IMG/VR virus record: IMGVR_UViG_3300024433_000001
Span: 1-58,212 of that record
DNA from: a virus
DNA length: 58,212 nt
Reading direction: 5' to 3' (one strand)
Made by a program: the position numbers and the translations under genes. Of the stretch, positions 2,994-58,212 are shown one piece after another; position 1 is the first letter of the stretch; each line of letters opens with the position of its first letter. The notes below the pieces were generated by a model. The model was given only the letters and a program-made list of their open reading frames with translations. It did not search any database and was not told the DNA's origin.

Positions 2994-3155
2994 TCTGTGG
3001 CCCCTTGCAACATAATACAGACCCGTGGCTAGCGCAGTCCAACTGTGGCAAGAGGCCGCAGTTGTCTCTCTGGATGCGGGGACAAGCGAGGTGATGTGCC
3101 ACCAACCATGGGTCTGTATGTCTCGAATTGTGTCATATCCTTTGCCGTTGTCCCG

Positions 3156-3620
3156 TCACAGGCATTGCAAGGCCCCCTTCGGATTTTTCAGCCCTCCATC
3201 TCTGTTATCGGCGTGCACATGTCCATCTTCATAATCGTCTCTTACCCAATCAAAATGATTCCGGGCCGCTTCGCCGACTGCCCGCTGCGGAATGCGGTCG
3301 CCCACCCGAACCACCTTAGCATAGAAATCCATCGCTATTCCACCATGGCCCGGCAGATGCTTCGAGTGCCGCGATACCGGCCCGCCATTGTCCAGCCAGC
3401 CGAACCGCGCGCCAAGCGCCGCATTGTCCGCCCGTGTCCGCGTACCGCTTGTGACGATGATTGCGACCTCTTCACCTTTCAACTGGCAGAGCTCGGCCCG
3501 CACCGCTTCAGCGCTGCGGATAAGCGACGGATGCACCGTGACAAGCCCTTCGCCATTCGCAAACTCGTACAGCCGGAAATGCTCGGACAACGGGAAATCG
3601 TTTGGTCGTTCACCCATCAT
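3156..3620 (-). CDS. Peptidase M15 family endolysin-like protein
   Basis: 154 residues with the zinc-peptidase pattern: SEHFRLYEF at the N-terminus, SGTRT, then His and Asp ligands in SRHSKHLPGHGGIAMDF, and the final HxH in DGHVHAD. This is the M15_3 layout of phage peptidoglycan peptidases, cutting the peptide stem. There is no signal peptide or membrane anchor, so release needs a holin or pinholin. The ATG overlaps the stop of the 8.5-kb gene upstream (ATGA), implying translational coupling. Confidence in the family is high; lysis versus virion-associated use is not settled. Confidence 0.88.
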   Translation of the reverse strand: MMGERPNDFPLSEHFRLYEFANGEGLVTVHPSLIRSAEAVRAELCQLKGEEVAIIVTSGTRTRADNAALGARFGWLDNGGPVSRHSKHLPGHGGIAMDFYAKVVRVGDRIPQRAVGEAARNHFDWVRDDYEDGHVHADNRDGGLKNPKGALQCL

Positions 3621-6600
3621 CTCGTTGTTGACCTTCCTGGACGCGTGAATTGACGGCCCCGAAGTGTTTGGCGACGTTGAGCAACCCCCTCACCCTTAAC
3701 TTTATCGCGTCCCCACCACGTCTCAAGTTTTGTATGTAGTTCCCTAGCCCATTTCTGGCTTTCTTCAACCATCTCACGTTGTGTTGGTGTCAAAAAGTCG
3801 CGCATGAACCGTTTCCGGTCAGTGTCGGATAGTCCGTACAAAGGATCAATATAGAGAAGAGATCGTTTGAAGTTCTCGACAGTGTTTTCTTCACCAACAT
3901 ATTTCTTTTTTGCGGCAAGAAACGCTTTATAGTTGTCGTTGATAGCCGCCCACTTCATGTTGCGGATTTTACTGGGCGGGAAGATCCCCTTCGTTTCTTT
4001 GCCCAAAACCGTTTTACGATAAGCGGTTTTCAACTCCAATGTTGCATAATACGCGTTCAACCTTGGTTGCGATACGCCAATAAAGTTTCGGGCGAAGTAA
4101 TCCGCTTTCACCGTTTCGCCAGTCTGTTTGGCAAGGCCCCTAACGGCCCGAGCCTCTTCCGCTAAACCTAGGAAGCCCGCTGCGGCCTCAATACGGCTAA
4201 TTGCCTTTGGCCGAGTTGGCTCGGGGAACAACCGCATACCTGTGACAACTTCCATCACCGTCTTTACATCGGGACGTATACCGAATACCACCTTTTTGAC
4301 AGGAGCGAGCGCCGCCTGTTTTGCAAGTTCACCCAAAGTGATTTGGTTATTAGCATATTTGGGATAATGCTCTATAATCTCGTTTATACCGAACACTTCA
4401 AGAACGTCGCCCAACGCGCCAGCGCTTCGCAATAGACGGATAGAGCCGTCTGGGTTACGCCCAAAAATAATATGTGGGGTTGCGCGTTCCCAACTGCTAA
4501 GCTCATCTTCTTCATCGGGGAACATTAAATGATTCCAGAACCACATGGCGCCATACAACCACAAAATCCGCGACATTGCTAATGTGCGAAATGCTGTGGT
4601 TGCAACGGTTTTGCCAACCGCTCCGGCTACAGCGCCCGTCTTTTCTTTGGCTTTGCCATAGACATAAGAGTTGCCAATCAACCGATATGTCCGGCCCATG
4701 TTGATTTCCTGCCAACTCCAGAACGGATACCAATGTTGGCGTATGACATCACCAAGTTCTGTCAGGTTTCTATAATCTCCAAGCAAATTGCGCGCCATAT
4801 GGGCTGCTGCAATATCGTCACCCAAATCTCGCCGAAGCGCTTCGACAACCCTTGGGTTTGCGCCACCATAATGAATGAGGTTGCCTTGTTTGAACTGGTC
4901 TCGGTAATAGAGAAAAGCTGCGTGCCGCAAAAGGTTCTCACGAAACATAGTCCATTTTTTTACAAAATCAAAATAATCGCTTACAATAGTCATGGCGTTG
5001 GTTTGTGAAGTATAGAATCGTTTGAATAAAGCCAAATTCTTTATGTCTGGGATTTCTGCGCGGGTCATTGAAGAAGAAATTACACATAGATCACGGGATA
5101 GCTCAAGTTCTTCAGTGATATTCTCGGGGTTACGATAAAATGCCCATAATTGGTCTACCGTAGGGACCACATATCGCGACCGTAATGCGCCTGGCGCCGC
5201 AGCAATGAGAGGATCAAGGTCACCTGTAAAATTACGGGCATTGTAGCCAAGCCCACGCTTGGGGTTCATCAACGTCCATTGTTTCCAATGACCCATAAGG
5301 TTACGCGATATACCACGTTCTACTTCGTTTGCCGTAGGCTTTCCCATCGCATTAAGTTGATGGACGATTTCTGTAGGCAATACCATTGCTTTGTGTGGCC
5401 CACCCATAGCGATCACCGTCTTTATCTGATCTCTGGATAGGCCTGGGAAAATACCGCTGCGTTCCAGATTTTCTACTGCTGCCGCTGGAATTGTATACAC
5501 AGGGAAAAACATGTTGCCGGATACGGATTGCCAGGGTTCATATCCATTGGGGATTAGGTCGTCCCATCCCAGATATTTGTCGCCAAGCCGATCTTGAACC
5601 ATTTTGCGTTTGTCGTTAAGCGCTTTGAAAATGCCTTTTGCCGCAATCCCAGCTTTTTGGTCTCCATACCGCATGATCAGATAGTTGACAAACGAAAACC
5701 ACTGATCCGAACCTGTGTCCAAAGATAGGTCATCTTCTTCAACAACCAAATCATCAAACTCGCCTAGCTCGATTGCACCCTTGTCGTACTCGCGCTGAAT
5801 CATATTTATAAACATCGCCAGCCGCTGACGGTATGGCATGGTTGGGTCCAGTTCCCAGAGTTCGTCGCTTAATTCTACTGCCCTAGCCTTCTCGTCCCTA
5901 TTCAGGCCGCGACCTTCTTCACGTGCTGTTTCCTGAAGCCCCCGGATAGCGCCTCGTAATTGTCTGATCTTTGCTACAACCTTCGGCCCACCAACAAGCG
6001 CCTCGAAGTTCATGGCCTTAGCGCCTGCCTTAAGCTCATCCAACCTATCATATCGGTCGCCGATCATGCGTAACGCTTTTTCTTTCTCGACCTCAACCAT
6101 CGCCTCAACCATCCATTCGCTTTCAGCTTGGATATAATCGGTATTGTAATCGTACTCTTCCGGCAGGCTTTCGCCTTTGACACGTTTTTTCTGGAACCCT
6201 CTTTTCATTCGTCGTAGCTTTCTGCCACCTAACCCACGACGCAATTTGAGCTTTGTCAGGACTTGCTGATGATAATACTGTTTCCGGTCAATTCCTTTCA
6301 GGATGCCGTATTCTTTAAGCATTTCACCAAGTACGTCAAGTAGCCGCTTCCGCTTGTTAAGCGCTTGCTGAATGGCCGGTGAACGCGCAACCGCGTTTCT
6401 AAATGTGATGAGATTTTCTTCAAGTTCTTCTATAGACTCATAACCGGATCGTAACGGTTCGCCAAACTTCCTGACAGACTCGTGCATGTTTAACATTATC
6501 AGATACCATTCAAAGGTGTCTTTTTCTTCAGGCGTTTTGAGGCTGCTTAATACATCAGCGATTTCCTCCTGTGTTTTTAGCAAAAGTTCATCTATACGAC

Positions 6601-52141: not shown

Positions 52142-54085
52142 TCATGCTGTTTTTCCCTTCCCGACAAAACTACAGTTGCCATCGTTTATCCAAACTACGC
52201 CCGTAGGCCGCATCGCCTTGGTCAACTGATCAATATCCGGCTCCTGACGAAGACCCCATGCGCCGGCCAGAATAATGGTCCCATATTCTGCAAAAGCAGT
52301 TTCAAGTTGTTGAAAAATGATGGGTTTGAACTTCCCGTCTAGTCCATCAAGATCGTCAATCAATACGATTCCGTTATCTGCAAACGCTGTAGCAACCGCG
52401 ATCTGCGTAAGGGCTTGCTCACCTTTTGACGCTTGGGCGACAGGACGTTTTGCGGCGCCAGTATGCCCCAACATTACTGTTACGGTTTTACCACCAACAT
52501 CAACAGCCAATTCGTACCCATAAGCTCGAAGTTGTTCGTTGCACCGTTTCTCGAATATCCCGAGGTCGTCGACCATGAACTTCTTGAACAATGCGCCATC
52601 ATGCAAAGCGTTCACAGCCCAGTCCAAGTGAGATTTCTCGGCCCCAAGATCGGCCAAGTGACTTTGATGTTGCCCGAACTCCTTCAACAAGGATAGCGCC
52701 TTTTCAACATCAAGGCCATGTCTGATGCGTTTGTCCAATTTGTCTATCTCAACCTCGATATCTTCGCGTGAACGGTTAGAACATGGTATCAGCGCGGCGA
52801 GTTGTTTCAGTTCCGGGTGTGCTTCACGAAGGTCAGCCGCAAGTGGCCCAAGTTTCTCGTAAACGGCTTCGACTTCTTGGACAGCCTTTTTGCGCAACGC
52901 GTTTCTGTCCTCAATAAGCTGGTTAAATGTGTGCTCCCGATCCAGAAGCGTCCCAAGTTTCGTATTTGCTTCTGCAATTGTATCATCCATAGGAGAAAGC
53001 AGCTCTTTCCGGGCCTTCTCCCCAAGCCGTCTTTTACATGTTGGACATATAGCCCCATCAGCCAATTTGGCGCGTTGCGTCTTGGCTTGGTTCAATATGT
53101 TCTCTGCTTGGGCGCTTTGCCCATGCAGATCAGACAATTTGTCACCCAATTCTTTTATCTCGGCTCCGCAAGCCTCTTGTTCTCTTTCGAGTGAATCCAC
53201 TTGGGTTTGGAGCGGCGCAATTTTGTCCTCGATCTTCGCAATGCGATCTCTTACCTCTGCGCGTTTAGCATCAAGCCGATCTGCCGTCATCCCGCCCTCA
53301 GAAAGGCGGCCCCTTTCCTCGAGCAACGCATCTCGTTCTGCGCTAATAACACGAATCCGATCCCGGACATTAGACAAATCTGCGACATTCAGGGGCGTAC
53401 CATTGGTCGAGCAGGGGATTTCCGTGGTCTCTAGCTCGGCAATCTTGGTTTCAACCATCTTGATATCCCTGTTGATATCTGTTCGTCTCGTGTAGGCCGC
53501 TTGTCCGATAGATTTCAGACTTTCGAGGGAATCGAGCCCAGGCCATTGCTCAAGCCATTTCGCGTGGTCCCCAGCCGTAGCCATTAACTGTTTTCGGTCA
53601 ATATCGCCTACCAACATTTCTGACAAGACATCTCCAAGCTCTTTTGATGTGACATATGTCTTGGGGTTGCCCGCACATTCGGCATGTCGCGAGTTGGCGC
53701 CGATATAGTCCCAGAACATTCGCCGTACCTCGCGAGGATCGCCGGCAAACTTGACGCGGTTGTGTTTGTCAAACACCGTGACCGCAGCGTGGCCGGCTTT
53801 GATGGTCATTGACATGGTCAACTGCTCGCATTGTTTGCCATTCAGGGTCAGCCCAACCTCGACTGTGGCTTCCTTACCGTGGTCGCCTACTAAATCCAGA
53901 TTTTTGAGCCGATTGCCGTTTACATCGAACACACGACCCCAGATCAACATTCGTATAGCCTGAATCAGGCTGCTTTTACCAGCGCCGTTCAACCCCGTCA
54001 GAAACAGTCCTGTCGGTAGATTTTCCAATGTGGCAGATTCAATTCCGCGAAAGTTTTTGATCTTCACGTTGTCAATCGTAACCAT
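52142..54085 (-). CDS. SbcC/Rad50-like ATPase
   Basis: 647 residues. Walker A GLNGAGKSS at about residue 32-40; a long coiled coil interrupted near residue 345 by CPTCKRR, a zinc-hook CxxC; signature and Walker B (IVLIDDLDGLDGK, about 570-582) at the C-terminus. This is the architecture of Rad50/SbcC-type DNA-end ATPases. No SbcD/Mre11-type nuclease gene is nearby, so it may use a host partner or work alone. The start has a GGGG site about 10 nt upstream. Confidence 0.88.
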   Translation of the reverse strand: MVTIDNVKIKNFRGIESATLENLPTGLFLTGLNGAGKSSLIQAIRMLIWGRVFDVNGNRLKNLDLVGDHGKEATVEVGLTLNGKQCEQLTMSMTIKAGHAAVTVFDKHNRVKFAGDPREVRRMFWDYIGANSRHAECAGNPKTYVTSKELGDVLSEMLVGDIDRKQLMATAGDHAKWLEQWPGLDSLESLKSIGQAAYTRRTDINRDIKMVETKIAELETTEIPCSTNGTPLNVADLSNVRDRIRVISAERDALLEERGRLSEGGMTADRLDAKRAEVRDRIAKIEDKIAPLQTQVDSLEREQEACGAEIKELGDKLSDLHGQSAQAENILNQAKTQRAKLADGAICPTCKRRLGEKARKELLSPMDDTIAEANTKLGTLLDREHTFNQLIEDRNALRKKAVQEVEAVYEKLGPLAADLREAHPELKQLAALIPCSNRSREDIEVEIDKLDKRIRHGLDVEKALSLLKEFGQHQSHLADLGAEKSHLDWAVNALHDGALFKKFMVDDLGIFEKRCNEQLRAYGYELAVDVGGKTVTVMLGHTGAAKRPVAQASKGEQALTQIAVATAFADNGIVLIDDLDGLDGKFKPIIFQQLETAFAEYGTIILAGAWGLRQEPDIDQLTKAMRPTGVVWINDGNCSFVGKGKTA

Positions 54086-54111
54086 TGGTCAATAACCCCT
54101 ATCTTGCGGCG

Positions 54112-54717
54112 TTATATATGACAAACCTCTTTTAGCTTTACTGTGTCCATATCCCAAGGCATTACCAATGCGCCAATACGCCATTTGCCCCCCGATTTTA
54201 TTTCAAAGATTAGCGGGTGCAACAACAAGTTAGCTGGGCGGGTCCCTAACCATCTGCCGCCCTGGTCTGTGAACAACTGGATATAATCGAGACTTACAGC
54301 CAAAAGCGTAAAGAAATCTTTGGGGTTGTGATTCCGAAGTAGGCGCACAAGAATGTCCGCGTTATCGGGGTCCGATACCGGGTTTACTAAGTCAACAAAT
54401 TCAAGAACACAATAATCTTTGTACCGAAGACGAACGGACCGCATTAACTCTGTTATTGTAATTGGGCGGGTCGGCATTTTCGCCTTTTGACCAAACTTGA
54501 ATCCCCCACAATGGTCATAGCTGAATCGGCCACGGGATATGGCCTTTCGGAACTTCGGTGCGGTAAACGTCACCGGCAAATAATGGGTGTCAATAAGCCA
54601 ATGTCTATTTGTCAACCGACGCCCATCAAAGTATGTCTTATACTCTAGCTTGTTTATCCGCGTTTTTAGCACAATTGGTTTTCTTTCTATCTTCACCGCA
54701 CTGTTTGTAGCCATCAT
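54112..54717 (-). CDS. Unknown protein upstream of the SbcC-like gene
   Basis: 201 residues. Beta-rich with KTYFDGRRLTNRHWLIDTHYLPV and a C-terminal GGKWRIGALVMPWDMD. GGAGG lies 7 nt before ATGATG. It overlaps the 3' end of the methyltransferase second frame by 80 nt. No metallophosphoesterase motif, so it is not an obvious SbcD replacement. Confidence 0.65.
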   Translation of the reverse strand: MMATNSAVKIERKPIVLKTRINKLEYKTYFDGRRLTNRHWLIDTHYLPVTFTAPKFRKAISRGRFSYDHCGGFKFGQKAKMPTRPITITELMRSVRLRYKDYCVLEFVDLVNPVSDPDNADILVRLLRNHNPKDFFTLLAVSLDYIQLFTDQGGRWLGTRPANLLLHPLIFEIKSGGKWRIGALVMPWDMDTVKLKEVCHI

Positions 54718-55918
54718 TCAACAACCTCCATGCTGCCGCAGCCACTGCCGGAACCTGCCCATTGCCAAGGGCTTTAAGTCGGTCCACGCGATGGGCTATT
54801 TTCTGTGCAACACGAGGGATGGCAGCCTCCCAGGTTCCCTCCAGCCAAGCCGCTCTGCCGTATGATGGATAAATCTGTGGCACCAGATGCACAGGGTCTG
54901 CAAGTTCTCCAGCCTTATGTTCTTGTGATTTCCGTCGAGGTGGTGTGTCTGAAGTCGCCGTTTTATTCCACAAGCCTCGCAACTCTTCTTGCGATATTTG
55001 CTTGCCCGCCACAGCCAACCCGACTTGGATAAAGATTTCCTTGTGTTCGCACACGAAAGAGTGCAGTACTTTCGCCTCTTCCAAGCCCCCCAATCCTCCA
55101 GGCGCGTTCCGAACCTCTTGCGCCGCATCATTTTGCCGCATGTTTGGCACCGTTTCGGTTTTTCCACCTTTCGCCGCATGGGCTTCTCCTTGCCTGAACC
55201 CCCTAAGCCACTTGCTAAACGATAGCACGTTCATGGGGTCTAAGCAAGTCCAAAATTGCGGCCAGCCCATCAAAAGTTCGACCCACTCGGGATTCAACTG
55301 GCCCTTCTCGCCCGTCGCACGCTCCATCTGCTTGCGGAACTGACCACTTATCTGGCCATGCGTTTGTGGCCCTTCGCCCCCCACATTCGGGGTCGGGAAC
55401 GTCCGCCGGGTCGGTGTCCCACCAATGGATTTCCTGACAGCATCGTTCAGGGTGAAGGTCCGTTGCGGGTTGATTCGCCCCGGGTGTTGCCCGTATCTCT
55501 TGCCCTGTCCCGCGTCTGGCGTCAGCCACATGTGTACCGCCGTGCCGAGCTTGGGCGTTGATACCTTGCCCCCCGCTTTGCGCTTCTGAAAATTCGCGTC
55601 CCCGTCCGTCAGGGCCGTACTTCTCGGACTCGGCCATAATCCACAGCCTATTTCTCCGATGTGGCGCTCCCAACTCGGCTGCCGATAGACAACGCCATCG
55701 AGCATCATACCCGCTTTCGGCCAGGTCTCCGAGTATTTGTCCGAAATATCCGTGACTCCCGGCAAGCAGGTTTGGGACGTTCTCCAAGAATACGTATTGT
55801 GGTCGTACAATGCGAACCACTGCAATTGTTTCGGGCCACAGGTTTCGTTTGTCTGTCTCGCCTCTCCGGTTACCGGCACAGGACCAGGGTTGGCAGGGGA
55901 ATCCTGCCGTAAGGACAT
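54638..55918 (-). CDS. C5 methyltransferase second subunit (recognition part and motifs IX-X), alternative frame
   Basis: 426 residues from an internal start (55918) that has AAGGA 7 nt upstream. From the start it resembles the phage family with TYSWRTSQTCL, SETWPKAGMM, GLWPSP and LNPEWVELLMGWP; its end RVDRLKALGNGQVP and the helix after it are motifs IX-X of C5 methyltransferases. It overlaps the catalytic subunit's gene by 704 nt in another frame. Two-polypeptide enzymes of this kind are known (M.EcoHK31I, M.AquI). Here the stretch between about residues 246 and 374 is occupied by an HNH gene in the third frame, making this subunit longer than expected. Confidence 0.7.
   Translation of the reverse strand: MSLRQDSPANPGPVPVTGEARQTNETCGPKQLQWFALYDHNTYSWRTSQTCLPGVTDISDKYSETWPKAGMMLDGVVYRQPSWERHIGEIGCGLWPSPRSTALTDGDANFQKRKAGGKVSTPKLGTAVHMWLTPDAGQGKRYGQHPGRINPQRTFTLNDAVRKSIGGTPTRRTFPTPNVGGEGPQTHGQISGQFRKQMERATGEKGQLNPEWVELLMGWPQFWTCLDPMNVLSFSKWLRGFRQGEAHAAKGGKTETVPNMRQNDAAQEVRNAPGGLGGLEEAKVLHSFVCEHKEIFIQVGLAVAGKQISQEELRGLWNKTATSDTPPRRKSQEHKAGELADPVHLVPQIYPSYGRAAWLEGTWEAAIPRVAQKIAHRVDRLKALGNGQVPAVAAAAWRLLNDGYKQCGEDRKKTNCAKNADKQARV
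54796..55179 (-). CDS. HNH endonuclease nested in the methyltransferase locus
   Basis: 127 residues. Zinc-type pairs CQTCG and CTLSC, then CEACGIKRRLQTHHLDGN, NLQTLCIWCHRFIHH: a complete treble-clef HNH nuclease. AAGGAG lies 6 nt before the ATG. It uses the third minus-strand frame, entirely inside the gene of the second methyltransferase subunit, ending just before that subunit's motif IX. It is therefore probably an inserted homing-type nuclease whose DNA is also read through by the host gene. Confidence 0.85.
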   Translation of the reverse strand: MRRKVEKPKRCQTCGKMMRRKRFGTRLEDWGAWKRRKYCTLSCANTRKSLSKSGWLWRASKYRKKSCEACGIKRRLQTHHLDGNHKNIRLENLQTLCIWCHRFIHHTAERLGWREPGRLPSLVLHRK

Positions 55919-56138
55919 CAACCATTCCTTGATAGATTTCAGCGCATCCGTTTTCGATGAACGCACGCACATTACCGAAAATAGGCGCATCAGTAAGCAA
56001 TCCATCTTCGATCCGTTGTGCAATAACTTTTTGGCAAAAGCAGTCAATTTCTACGTAGCCTATCGTTGTCCAACCCAACAAATGTTGTGTGGCGAGCAGT
56101 CCGCCCCCTGCGCCACTGAATAAACTAAGCTCATACAT
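55215..56138 (-). CDS. C5 cytosine DNA methyltransferase, catalytic subunit
   Basis: 307 residues. Motif I LSLFSGAGGG (4-13), motif IV GFPCQPWS with the catalytic Cys at about 82, motif VI ENV (119-121), motif VIII GAPHRRNRLWIMA (about 160-172). The following 130 residues lack motifs IX and X, which are found in the overlapping frame. The start at 56138 is chosen because motif I must begin within a few residues; the Shine-Dalgarno site is weak and overlaps the previous gene. Confidence 0.88.
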   Translation of the reverse strand: MYELSLFSGAGGGLLATQHLLGWTTIGYVEIDCFCQKVIAQRIEDGLLTDAPIFGNVRAFIENGCAEIYQGMVDVLTAGFPCQPWSCAGNRRGETDKRNLWPETIAVVRIVRPQYVFLENVPNLLAGSHGYFGQILGDLAESGYDARWRCLSAAELGAPHRRNRLWIMAESEKYGPDGRGREFSEAQSGGQGINAQARHGGTHVADARRGTGQEIRATPGANQPATDLHPERCCQEIHWWDTDPADVPDPECGGRRATNAWPDKWSVPQADGACDGREGPVESRVGRTFDGLAAILDLLRPHERAIV

Positions 56139-56400
56139 CCTCTGTTTTTTCCACTTCGATACCGACAACGGCATAACCGAACTTGTCTGCAATCCGCTCT
56201 TCTAATTTTTCGAGCATCCATTGGGTTACTTGAATGCCTTGACGGGTTACAAAACAGTGGCTTTTGGGTATCCAAATAGGATAAAGACACTCCTCAACTT
56301 TGGCAGAGTTCTGTGTCTCCCGATACCAATAGTTGACTGAAACCAGCAAACCCTTTTCAGTCTCATCCTCCACAACGGCATCAGTTAATGTCTGTTTCAT
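56131..56400 (-). CDS. Paralogue of the 49054-49323 protein
   Basis: 89 residues from MKQTL, with AAGGGGG 9 nt upstream, matching the start of its paralogue. It shares LLVSVNYWYRETQ, CLYPIWIPKSHC and RQGIQVTQWMLEKLEERIADK with it. Located between RecT and the methyltransferase. Function unknown; two copies in one phage suggest a dosage or specificity role. Confidence 0.75.
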   Translation of the reverse strand: MKQTLTDAVVEDETEKGLLVSVNYWYRETQNSAKVEECLYPIWIPKSHCFVTRQGIQVTQWMLEKLEERIADKFGYAVVGIEVEKTEDV

Positions 56401-56424
56401 ATTATGTGACCCCCTTGTCGCCAA

Positions 56425-57282
56425 CTAAAACAATTCGTCCTTCATGGAATCATCGTTCTCCACCATCACCGATTCTGGTTCAGATGTTGCTTGTTCCGGC
56501 TGATCTGTAAGCTCGGGTTCGGGCAGAACCTCCGTAGTTTGGGTATCAAACTCCGTATCGGAACTTTGGTTCAAATCGGGCTGTCCCGACCCAAGCTGCT
56601 TCTCCAGATCCTCGAGCGTTGTAGGCGCATCAAATGGCTCATGGACTTCTTCTGCTACAACATCAATAGCTGCCGGCAGATCCCGGGCCTCTTCGGCGAT
56701 GTAAAGTCCTTTCAGCAAGTCAGGAAACGTGTCACGCAAGCAGAATCCACGTGGTCGGTAACGTAACATACGTTTTGGGTACGTAACCCAAGGTGTCGGT
56801 TGCCCAGTTTTCCCTGTTTTGCCCCAAAGCCCCGCCAGCTTGGCGTCTGCAATACTAAACTCAACCCTTACTGGTTTATCACGGCCTTTCCGTTTGGCTT
56901 CACAAACACCCCTGAAATCGTCATTCGGATACTCGCCCTCATACCATTCGTTGATATACTCGCAAAGGGGTGACGCCTCACAAAGGCCCTTTGCGGCATC
57001 GCCCCATACCGAAGGCCGACCGTTTATAACCGCAATGTTTTGTATACTTTGCATCGGAAGAAGCCCGATCTCGGCCCCCATCTGGATTGCGATAAGGACG
57101 CTCTCGGGCCGTTCCATTTGCTTGGGCGCGAAACCAGAAGCGACTACGTATTGGGCAAATCGATACATTGTACTCAAACTTGTTAGTTGTAACCCACGAG
57201 ACCCCGCCGCTATAAGCGCCTTTTCATTCGGCAGATTCTCTTTTGTCTCGCTTGGTTTAGGCATATCTACTTTTACAGCCAT
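56425..57282 (-). CDS. recT: RecT-family single-strand annealing protein
   Basis: 285 residues. Core signature: IQMGAEIGLLPMQSIQNIAV, INGRPSVWGDAAKGL, then TPWVTYPKRMLRYRPRGFCL and FPDLLKGLYIAEEA. The last 75 residues are acidic and probably disordered, as in many RecT proteins, where the tail can bind SSB. GGGAG lies 8 nt before the ATG. It anneals strands resected by the YqaJ exonuclease encoded just upstream. Confidence 0.95.
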   Translation of the reverse strand: MAVKVDMPKPSETKENLPNEKALIAAGSRGLQLTSLSTMYRFAQYVVASGFAPKQMERPESVLIAIQMGAEIGLLPMQSIQNIAVINGRPSVWGDAAKGLCEASPLCEYINEWYEGEYPNDDFRGVCEAKRKGRDKPVRVEFSIADAKLAGLWGKTGKTGQPTPWVTYPKRMLRYRPRGFCLRDTFPDLLKGLYIAEEARDLPAAIDVVAEEVHEPFDAPTTLEDLEKQLGSGQPDLNQSSDTEFDTQTTEVLPEPELTDQPEQATSEPESVMVENDDSMKDELF

Positions 57283-57303
57283 GGTTGTCGTCTCCCTTAA
57301 CGT

Positions 57304-58212
57304 TTACTTGCCCACCTTCAACTTGCGCAAGACTCTAAACTGACTATCTTTTTGCTCGAATGGAATGTCCGTTGTAACCAAACGGTCAAGGTATTCATCC
57401 GCAACCGTGATTTTTCCTTTGCGCACTTGCGTTTTGAGGCTATACCGGACATTGCCAAACTCGCCAAATGTCGCATCGCCGATTTGTTCCTTGAACCAAT
57501 TCTCTAGCTCGATCTTCTCGGTCTCGAGCTTTTTCAGCATTGCCTTGATCTCGATTAGCCGTTTGTCCTGATTGACCGTATCAGACGATAAAGTTGCCGT
57601 GGCGCCGTTATCGTTCGGGTGTAGTAGGCATAACGTTTCCTTCGTTGATTTCGACCCGTCTACTGGCGGCGCAGTGCCGGTCTGAACCCGGTCCCAGAAT
57701 CGTTTAAGATGCTCCACGACCTTGAACAACAACCCATCCTGCCGATCAAAGTCTCGAGTGAAAAAGTCGCGGTTGCCAATCAAACCAGCTACCGACCCCC
57801 ATTTAAGGTTCAGAATCAACATCTGCGCCTGATTTTGAACTTGGTGGTGTAATGGCACAGACCCACCCCTCCAGTCCTTTGCGCTAAACTGACCAGAAGT
57901 CTTTAACTCGAGCGCGCCAAACCCTCGTTTACCGTCGTAAACAATCCTGTCGGGCGTACAAAACAGAAAATCCCAATCCGTACTTCTGCGGAATGCGAAC
58001 TCTCCAGGATCGTGTGTCCGCCGTCCCGTTTCGTCCTCGTAAAGCGTGGTAACAATTGGTTCCAAAAGGTGGCCCAACCGCATTGCAAGCGTCTCCCTAG
58101 CGTTAGGCAGGACGATCCCGCGCTTTTCGGCCCAGAGCGTATAGGGCGATTTGTATGGATTAAGCCCTAACGCAGTGGCGACTTCCGATGCGCCAATTCC
58201 CGCTTGGCGTTC
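57304..58212 (-). CDS. YqaJ-type recombination exonuclease, C-terminal part
   Basis: This is the continuation of the gene that starts at base 199; bases 58086-58212 repeat 1-127. The catalytic core is visible: an Asp in the WDFLFCTPD segment and a Glu-x-Lys in ALELKTSGQ, the PD-(D/E)xK pattern of this nuclease superfamily. The last third has a predicted coiled coil rich in Glu and Lys, around the IKAMLKKLETEKIELENW region. It sits immediately upstream of RecT, the classic exonuclease plus annealase pair of phage recombination modules. An annotation stopping at the window edge would wrongly start it at an internal Met (58083). Confidence 0.93.
   Translation of the reverse strand, partial: ERQAGIGASEVATALGLNPYKSPYTLWAEKRGIVLPNARETLAMRLGHLLEPIVTTLYEDETGRRTHDPGEFAFRRSTDWDFLFCTPDRIVYDGKRGFGALELKTSGQFSAKDWRGGSVPLHHQVQNQAQMLILNLKWGSVAGLIGNRDFFTRDFDRQDGLLFKVVEHLKRFWDRVQTGTAPPVDGSKSTKETLCLLHPNDNGATATLSSDTVNQDKRLIEIKAMLKKLETEKIELENWFKEQIGDATFGEFGNVRYSLKTQVRKGKITVADEYLDRLVTTDIPFEQKDSQFRVLRKLKVGK
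58086..58212. repeat. Terminal direct repeat, right copy
   Basis: Exact second copy of bases 1-127. It should be counted once when the genome is closed. It lies within the 5' part of the exonuclease gene. Confidence 0.95.

Follow-up and report, generated by a model that had tools for sequence, protein, structure and literature searches.

An HNH endonuclease gene that is probably mobile, and probably of the homing kind, lies inside a phage cytosine-5 (m5C) methyltransferase where, judging from its sequence, it resides without an intron or an intein. The window, i.e. the whole stretch of DNA analysed, is a complete IMG/VR virus record of 58,212 bases. The nuclease gene is contained in the second of two overlapping methyltransferase genes, and the same design recurs, always with the same frame offset, in other phage methyltransferases.

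Locus organisation and the HNH protein

The features of the locus are given in Table 1. The first subunit, alpha, matches Pfam DNA_methylase (E = 1.1e-33) and is overlapped by the second, beta, in the +1 frame; the match to phrog_363 is split across the alpha and beta frames, with its C-terminal part on beta, which is also matched by phrog_1008. As a whole, the motif positions, Pfam and PHROGs give a layout of the M.AquI type, with motifs I-VIII on alpha and the recognition region and motifs IX-X on beta. The start of beta is uncertain, the TTG used here being the earliest possible one in the open frame. As for the names "motif IX" and "motif X", they are what we take to be the textbook labels, and they are backed by another locus (L123), in which RLMGFPD occupies the place of motif IX. 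In the window, motif IX in beta reads LNPEWVELLMGWP, with its core, LMGWP, at positions 55273..55259 of the minus strand.

Table 1. Features of the split methyltransferase and of the nested HNH gene in the window
Feature	Position	Strand	Remarks
alpha, cytosine-5 methyltransferase subunit	55215..56138	-	motifs I-VIII; without motif X
beta subunit ORF, 469 aa	54638..56047	-	recognition region, motif IX, HNH read-through, motif X
HNH endonuclease ORF, 127 aa, ATG	54796..55179	-	wholly inside beta; +1 relative to beta
Motif IX segment GQLNPEWVELLMGWP	55259..55303	-	beta frame; upstream copy, presumed functional
Motif X RVDRLKALGNGQVP	54749..54790	-	beta frame; alpha frame in most HNH-free relatives
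Duplicated IX/X segment, upstream 60-nt copy	55226..55285	-	from copy comparison
Duplicated IX/X segment, downstream 60-nt copy	54760..54819	-	from copy comparison
Fossil beta tail PIAWTDLKPLAMGRFRQWLRQHGGC*	54718..54795	-	HNH frame, directly after the HNH stop
AAGGAG, Shine-Dalgarno-like	55186..55191	-	7-12 nt upstream of the HNH ATG

The initial annotation of this DNA had described a complete HNH gene with its own Shine-Dalgarno site inside the second methyltransferase subunit, and the ORF, its PHROG matches and the AAGGAG bear this out. It had placed the gene between the recognition region and motif IX; the actual site is between motif IX and motif X. The three minus-strand frames are indeed all used within about 1.5 kb, as had been proposed, but never all three at one base, since alpha has ended 35 nt ahead of the HNH ATG.

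The HNH ORF matches the PHROG families phrog_1271 (E = 1.2e-9) and phrog_2255 (2.7e-8), its matches to Pfam HNH_3 (0.0042) and HNH (0.035) falling under the cut-offs of these families. The zinc cysteines, together with H79, H80, N92 and H101, are invariant across 28 aligned HNH sequences, and the fold was modelled with confidence (pLDDT 91.9). A PDB fold search with this model returned nothing at E ≤ 0.001, and a profile search of PDB sequences gave general HNH relatives alone, e.g. the IscB HNH (2.4e-5). With I-HmuI, an HNH homing endonuclease, the protein has in common the HNH catalytic core and a presumed copying into empty alleles; the structure comparison between the two was insignificant (E = 2.2) and, unlike I-HmuI, the HNH of the window comes without a group I intron and its homing role is a presumed one. 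Concerning beta, a fold model meant to reveal any domain formed by the insert was useless (pLDDT 36.8).

Openness of the host frame

A stop arises in the host frame where an HNH codon ending in T precedes AA, AG or GA. The openness of this frame was assessed by resampling synonymous codons, drawn either from local usage or from the gene's own codons. Across the HNH gene, beta has no stop vs. 6.4 expected with local codon usage (P = 0.0006) and 4.1 with the gene's own codons (P = 0.0054); the frame of the second subunit, which had been noted as staying open across the HNH gene, is thus open beyond chance by both nulls. The window and 22 other nested loci were tested, with two of the 23 trimmed at the host's own stop, and each likewise has no host-frame stop, with P ≤ 0.009 for local usage and P ≤ 0.024 for own codons in every case. 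For more distant, mostly free-standing HNH loci put through the same test, stops were mostly near expectation, with a few low-stop exceptions (L103, L100 and L021). The first of these, from Erythrobacter rubeus (HNH ORF 3120-3710), is distant and non-nested, and has one alternate-frame stop vs. 7.3 expected (P = 0.002).

Removal of the segment before the protein functions, by an unrecognised self-splicing intron, a ribosomal bypass or an intein-like element, would suit a gene whose location and mobility resemble those of intron- and intein-borne nucleases; the authors of the ShiLan paper, who used RNAweasel, also considered such removal (PMC11855218). For the window such removal is highly improbable. 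No Rfam intron match, up to E = 5, was obtained within positions 53500-57500, in line with the earlier view that no group I intron surrounds the insertion, no intein/Hint splicing domain was found in beta (Pfam gave no family), and an open, conserved host frame would be needless if the segment were removed.

Recurrence in phage m5C methyltransferases

Scans with HNH alignments, and with an HMM trained on 21 nested HNHs, found an HNH match in 261 of 273 loci. Among the 70 distinct loci scoring at least 90, a threshold at which nested relatives are favoured because the HMM was built from nested HNHs, 65 have the HNH nested in an m5C methyltransferase, "nested" being defined by the open frame and nine repeated or near-identical loci having been removed by hand before the count. 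In all 65, the HNH is +1 relative to the host frame (the host being -1 of the HNH), and Pfam DNA_methylase was found in all nine hosts checked. The same design was met in the first search in a second phage contig (L001), and two deposited phages carry it with the HNH unannotated: Staphylococcus phage CUB-EPI_14, inside a 601-aa DNA-cytosine methyltransferase, and Komagataeibacter phage phiKX1. The arrangement, which had been called unusual, is no lone case, being carried by 65 distinct loci, and out-of-frame HNHs of this general kind have been published as the ShiLan domain (PMC11855218).

The five non-nested loci were inspected by eye. In L095 (2375-3833) and L123 (838-3219), an HNH of the nested family lies directly downstream of an intact m5C methyltransferase; in L121 and L124 it sits in broken methyltransferases; and in L021 it is downstream of a long ORF whose end is amino-methyltransferase-like. 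A DNA-level search of deposited phages with the locus returned short or weak pieces only, and scans of viral contigs with single proteins returned few relatives. In a tree of 106 HNHs, with few columns and many forks unresolved, the HNH of the window groups with that of L214 (99/93) and with others that have the motif IX frame as host.

This distribution bears on whether the methyltransferase is simply dead or misassembled, the open frame arising by coincidence during gene decay or through faulty assembly. We regard that as scarcely credible: the same frame recurs in 65 distinct loci, including the deposited phages CUB-EPI_14 and phiKX1, and the openness is far beyond chance. The absence of motif X from alpha, and the HNHs carried by the broken methyltransferases of L121 and L124, would fit a dead enzyme, but M.AquI (PMC3404938) is an example of a two-part enzyme whose small subunit carries motif X.

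Insertion positions and empty sites

Sorting by motif patterns put the HNH before motif X with motif IX in the other frame (22 loci), before motif X with motif IX not resolved (21), between motifs IX and X in one frame (13) or before motif IX (nine), some of these labels being pattern failures (e.g. L238, L217 and L115). Within one methyltransferase subfamily, at least three positions were found, namely downstream (L123), before motif IX (L122) and between motifs IX and X (L045, L066 and L073). The insertion position is not unique; the frame offset is.

Relatives of alpha were fetched at 80 loci, and both motifs were recognised by patterns in 33 of them, most of which have no HNH (32 HNH-free loci, some being near copies of each other, and one with a weak HNH). 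In 26 of the 32 HNH-free loci, the spacing between motifs IX and X is exactly 47 nt. Nearly all of these 26 have motif IX in frame with beta and motif X in frame with alpha, which means that the two motifs overlap, each read in its own frame. As judged from HNH presence or absence and from identity comparison, the distribution of the nuclease among divergent methylases is disjunct.

The nearest empty alpha, that of L275, is 67.7% identical to that of the window over 167 aa. Motifs IX and X of the window lie 513 nt apart, which gives a net insert of 466 nt; this being 1 mod 3, motif X has passed from the alpha to the beta frame. The same shift is seen in L208, L238, L215, L204 and L014. Even without an HNH, motif X lies in the beta frame in three loci (L276, L277 and L308), separated from motif IX by 183-276 nt, so the shift needs no HNH in general. 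HNH-free relatives are thus shorter at this spot, as had been anticipated, the difference being about 466 nt, but the host cannot be called simply intact, motif X being in alpha in most of them and a duplicated, decayed copy having been left in the window. Of the initial interpretation as a whole, out-of-frame nesting without intron or intein is retained, and the site, the intactness and the rarity are revised.

A duplication scar around the HNH gene

The fossil beta tail behind the HNH gene, PIAWTDLKPLAMGRFRQWLRQHGGC, corresponds to the beta tail of the empty locus L275, IGWTDLRPLEMDKFRSWLRQHGGC, and the other version of this tail in the window is found in beta, before the HNH gene. Right after the fossil's stop, and 80 nt inside the end of beta, begins the following gene (54717..54112, 201 aa), which has no family match in Pfam or PHROGs.

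The register of the two copies was fixed from empty alleles, in which LMG and GN are separated by 41 nt in six of six checked. The two 60-nt copies of the window are 45% identical, better than at all 584 other offsets; motif IX survives in the upstream copy and motif X in the downstream one. Over 41 loci, the 60-nt copies flanking the HNH have a mean identity of 42.5% vs. 25.5% at other offsets, and the identity ranks in the top 1% for 23 of them. The downstream fossil retains LMG(W/F/Y) in L238, L204, L206, L013 and L213. With a codon-aware null keeping the motif X protein, the likeness in the window was reached in 0 of 400 cases; over 64 loci, the codon-aware fossil test gave P < 0.05 in 14 and was not significant in 50. 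An unbiased repeat search of six regions matched the predicted spacing exactly in L206 (480), L201 (462), L238 (454) and L319 (387), and found no repeat in the window or in L013, so that the scar in the window rests on the register-guided and codon-aware tests. The simplest reading is that the insertion would have duplicated the IX/X overlap and that each copy kept one duty.

The locus L319 (4182-4668) has a different, weakly matching type of HNH directly behind motif IX, with the alpha frame open. Its HNH is flanked by a 35-nt direct repeat (74%) with a spacing of 387 nt, which offers the clearest view of the duplication.

Mobility and joint descent

HNH and alpha identities were compared on the catalytic region for 54 of the 65 loci, 11 having been dropped as they had no clean motif IV region. 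The two identities correlate (r2 0.17, 1210 pairs; 0 of 500 permutations as high in a Mantel test), and part of the history is therefore joint descent. Individual pairs disagree in both directions: L204 and L208 are 86% identical in alpha and 56% in the HNH, while the values are 54% and 89% for L205 and L208, and 25% and 64% for L094 and L205. Because of this two-way disagreement, a mobile, probably homing nuclease is favoured over a cognate restriction enzyme. An earlier count of 81 out of 263 pairs without an upstream hit was set aside, since the upstream host sequences mixed alpha and beta frames. In L205 (2546-3970), alpha and beta are apparently fused, with motifs IV and X in the same ORF, unlike in L208 and L238, by either a fusion or a frameshift.

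PacI has zinc sites. Small zinc-HNH restriction enzymes such as PacI exist (it is named in PMC11855218), and with the strict association of the family with DNA methyltransferases they would be compatible with a nested restriction-modification system, in which the HNH is a restriction enzyme matched to the recognition sequence of the methyltransferase. This is very unlikely, as the nuclease does not covary with the recognition region of the methyltransferase. In L045 and L057, a DNA identity of 89.8% is confined to a stretch that begins at motif IX and ends shortly after the HNH; their HNHs are 92% identical and their recognition regions do not align in DNA. Conversely, L204 and L208 share a recognition region that is almost unchanged (by eye), although their HNHs have diverged as given above. 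A cognate restriction enzyme was rejected on these two observations, namely that near-identical HNHs occur beside recognition regions that are unrelated, and that different HNHs occur beside one that is nearly unchanged.

Selection on the host frame was assessed against stop-free synonymous shuffles. The likeness of host-frame peptides exceeded the shuffles with z-scores of 6.9 and 15.2 at HNH identities of 0.3-0.4 and 0.4-0.5, vs. -0.3 and 2.3 for the third (control) frame in the same bins; these scores are overstated because the pairs are not independent, but the contrast between the frames stands. The host-frame excess is small at HNH identities of 0.1-0.3 (z 1.8), and above 0.5 both frames lie above the null (28.3 and 9.5), as expected from shared ancestry.

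Such conservation of the host-frame peptide beyond the HNH constraint is also what would be seen if the HNH and its read-through peptide had been fixed long ago and served the methyltransferase, for example by providing a partner nuclease or a linker domain that the enzyme needs, with vertical inheritance and little mobility. The tie of this HNH family to m5C methyltransferases (65 nested and, of the five others, two just downstream of intact enzymes and two in broken ones) and the Mantel correlation point the same way. A long-fixed module is nevertheless unlikely, given that identities disagree both ways (L204-L208 and L205-L208), that most alpha relatives with both motifs are without the HNH, that at least three insertion positions occur within one methyltransferase subfamily, and that more distant HNHs are found out of frame in inteins. 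The mobile, probably homing nuclease remains the preferred reading.

Relation to known systems

Out-of-frame HNHs are established in mycobacteriophage methylases, as the ShiLan domain (PMC11855218, Genes 2025; Gosselin et al. 2023, PMC9957025), and a 2025 announcement reports a methylase with an out-of-frame HNH in phage Applejack (PMC12613952). The window shares with ShiLan an HNH ORF out of frame within a phage DNA methylase, a stop-free host frame and no intron or intein signature. According to section 3.1 of PMC11855218, the first residues of the ShiLan insert resemble the flank behind the insertion site, which is similar to the duplication in the family of the window. This family differs by its m5C hosts, its other HNH subfamily and its constant +1 offset; it often has a Shine-Dalgarno site, whereas PMC11855218 gives none as detectable for ShiLan, and its scar lies in an overlapping gene pair. 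The host gene of phage Starcevich, a carrier named in PMC11855218, has TDPPYG and reads as a DPPY amino-methyltransferase, with the HNH ORF at +2 (by eye from the translation); the m5C family is therefore a separate case. No description of an m5C-hosted family or of an overlap duplication was found in searches of the openly licensed PMC literature. The m5C family is a separate, wider variant, with a duplication scar, of the published ShiLan-type phenomenon.

Two further kinds of out-of-frame HNH were encountered. L178 (2674-4377) is an N6_N4 methyltransferase with an out-of-frame HNH (host +1 of the HNH), a ShiLan-like type of host. Inteins, for the most part in phage terminase genes, also contain out-of-frame HNH ORFs (L144:2276-4732, L155:133-2601, L152:3-2060, L157:1400-3508 and L164:636-2810, as well as L182, L183 and L186); in these, Pfam Intein_splicing spans the HNH, the host frame then ends intein-like in ...NGILVHNC, and the nuclease frame differs from that of the splicing domain.

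As for the methyltransferase itself, M.AquI and M.EcoHK31I are natural two-polypeptide cytosine-5 methyltransferases, and both layouts are given among characterised enzymes in PMC3404938. The window shares the layout of M.AquI (alpha with motifs I-VIII; beta with the recognition region, IX and X), whereas most HNH-free relatives resemble M.EcoHK31I, with motif X beside motifs I-VIII and motif IX on the other polypeptide. The account of these enzymes in PMC3404938 describes no nested nuclease; in the window, it is the insertion that separates the two layouts.

Expression and proposed mechanism

In 23 of the 65 nested loci, 5 nt or more match the Shine-Dalgarno sequence at positions -18 to -5; at ten shifted control positions, such matches number 2 to 7 of 65. 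Upstream ORFs of 80 codons or more have their stop within 70 nt of the HNH start in 37 of the 65 loci and within 20 nt in 32, and in 15 this stop abuts the HNH start. The Shine-Dalgarno matches and the nearby upstream stops make an internal start or a re-initiation of HNH translation plausible.

In the proposed mechanism, beta would be translated straight through the HNH gene, so that the DNA of the nuclease would also supply beta with a linker of about 130 residues. The nuclease would be started separately from its own Shine-Dalgarno site, perhaps aided by the ribosomes that finish alpha shortly upstream. It would then cut nuclease-free methyltransferase genes in co-infecting phages and be copied in by repair, surviving because the host enzyme would still work as a two-part methyltransferase.

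We put at about even the chances of a broader picture, in which widespread frame-sharing homing nucleases colonise phage m5C methyltransferases. They would enter the frame overlap and duplicate it, each copy keeping one motif, whereby the overlapping pair would be "unzipped" and motif X could switch subunit, from an EcoHK31I-like to an AquI-like layout. The DNA of the nuclease would then be selected in both frames, a parasite encoding a domain of its host protein with no splicing involved.

The long-standing view was that a mobile nuclease can reside harmlessly in a gene only with the help of an intron, an intein or a neutral spacer. The present family would instead persist in conserved enzyme genes by sharing its DNA with the host protein in another frame, and, with its many natural cases, it lends itself to tests of double-frame selection. 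Homing, for its part, can be tested directly on the HNH-free relatives. The insertion also points to a possible way of separating overlapping genes, and to a route by which motifs may be exchanged between the subunits of split enzymes.
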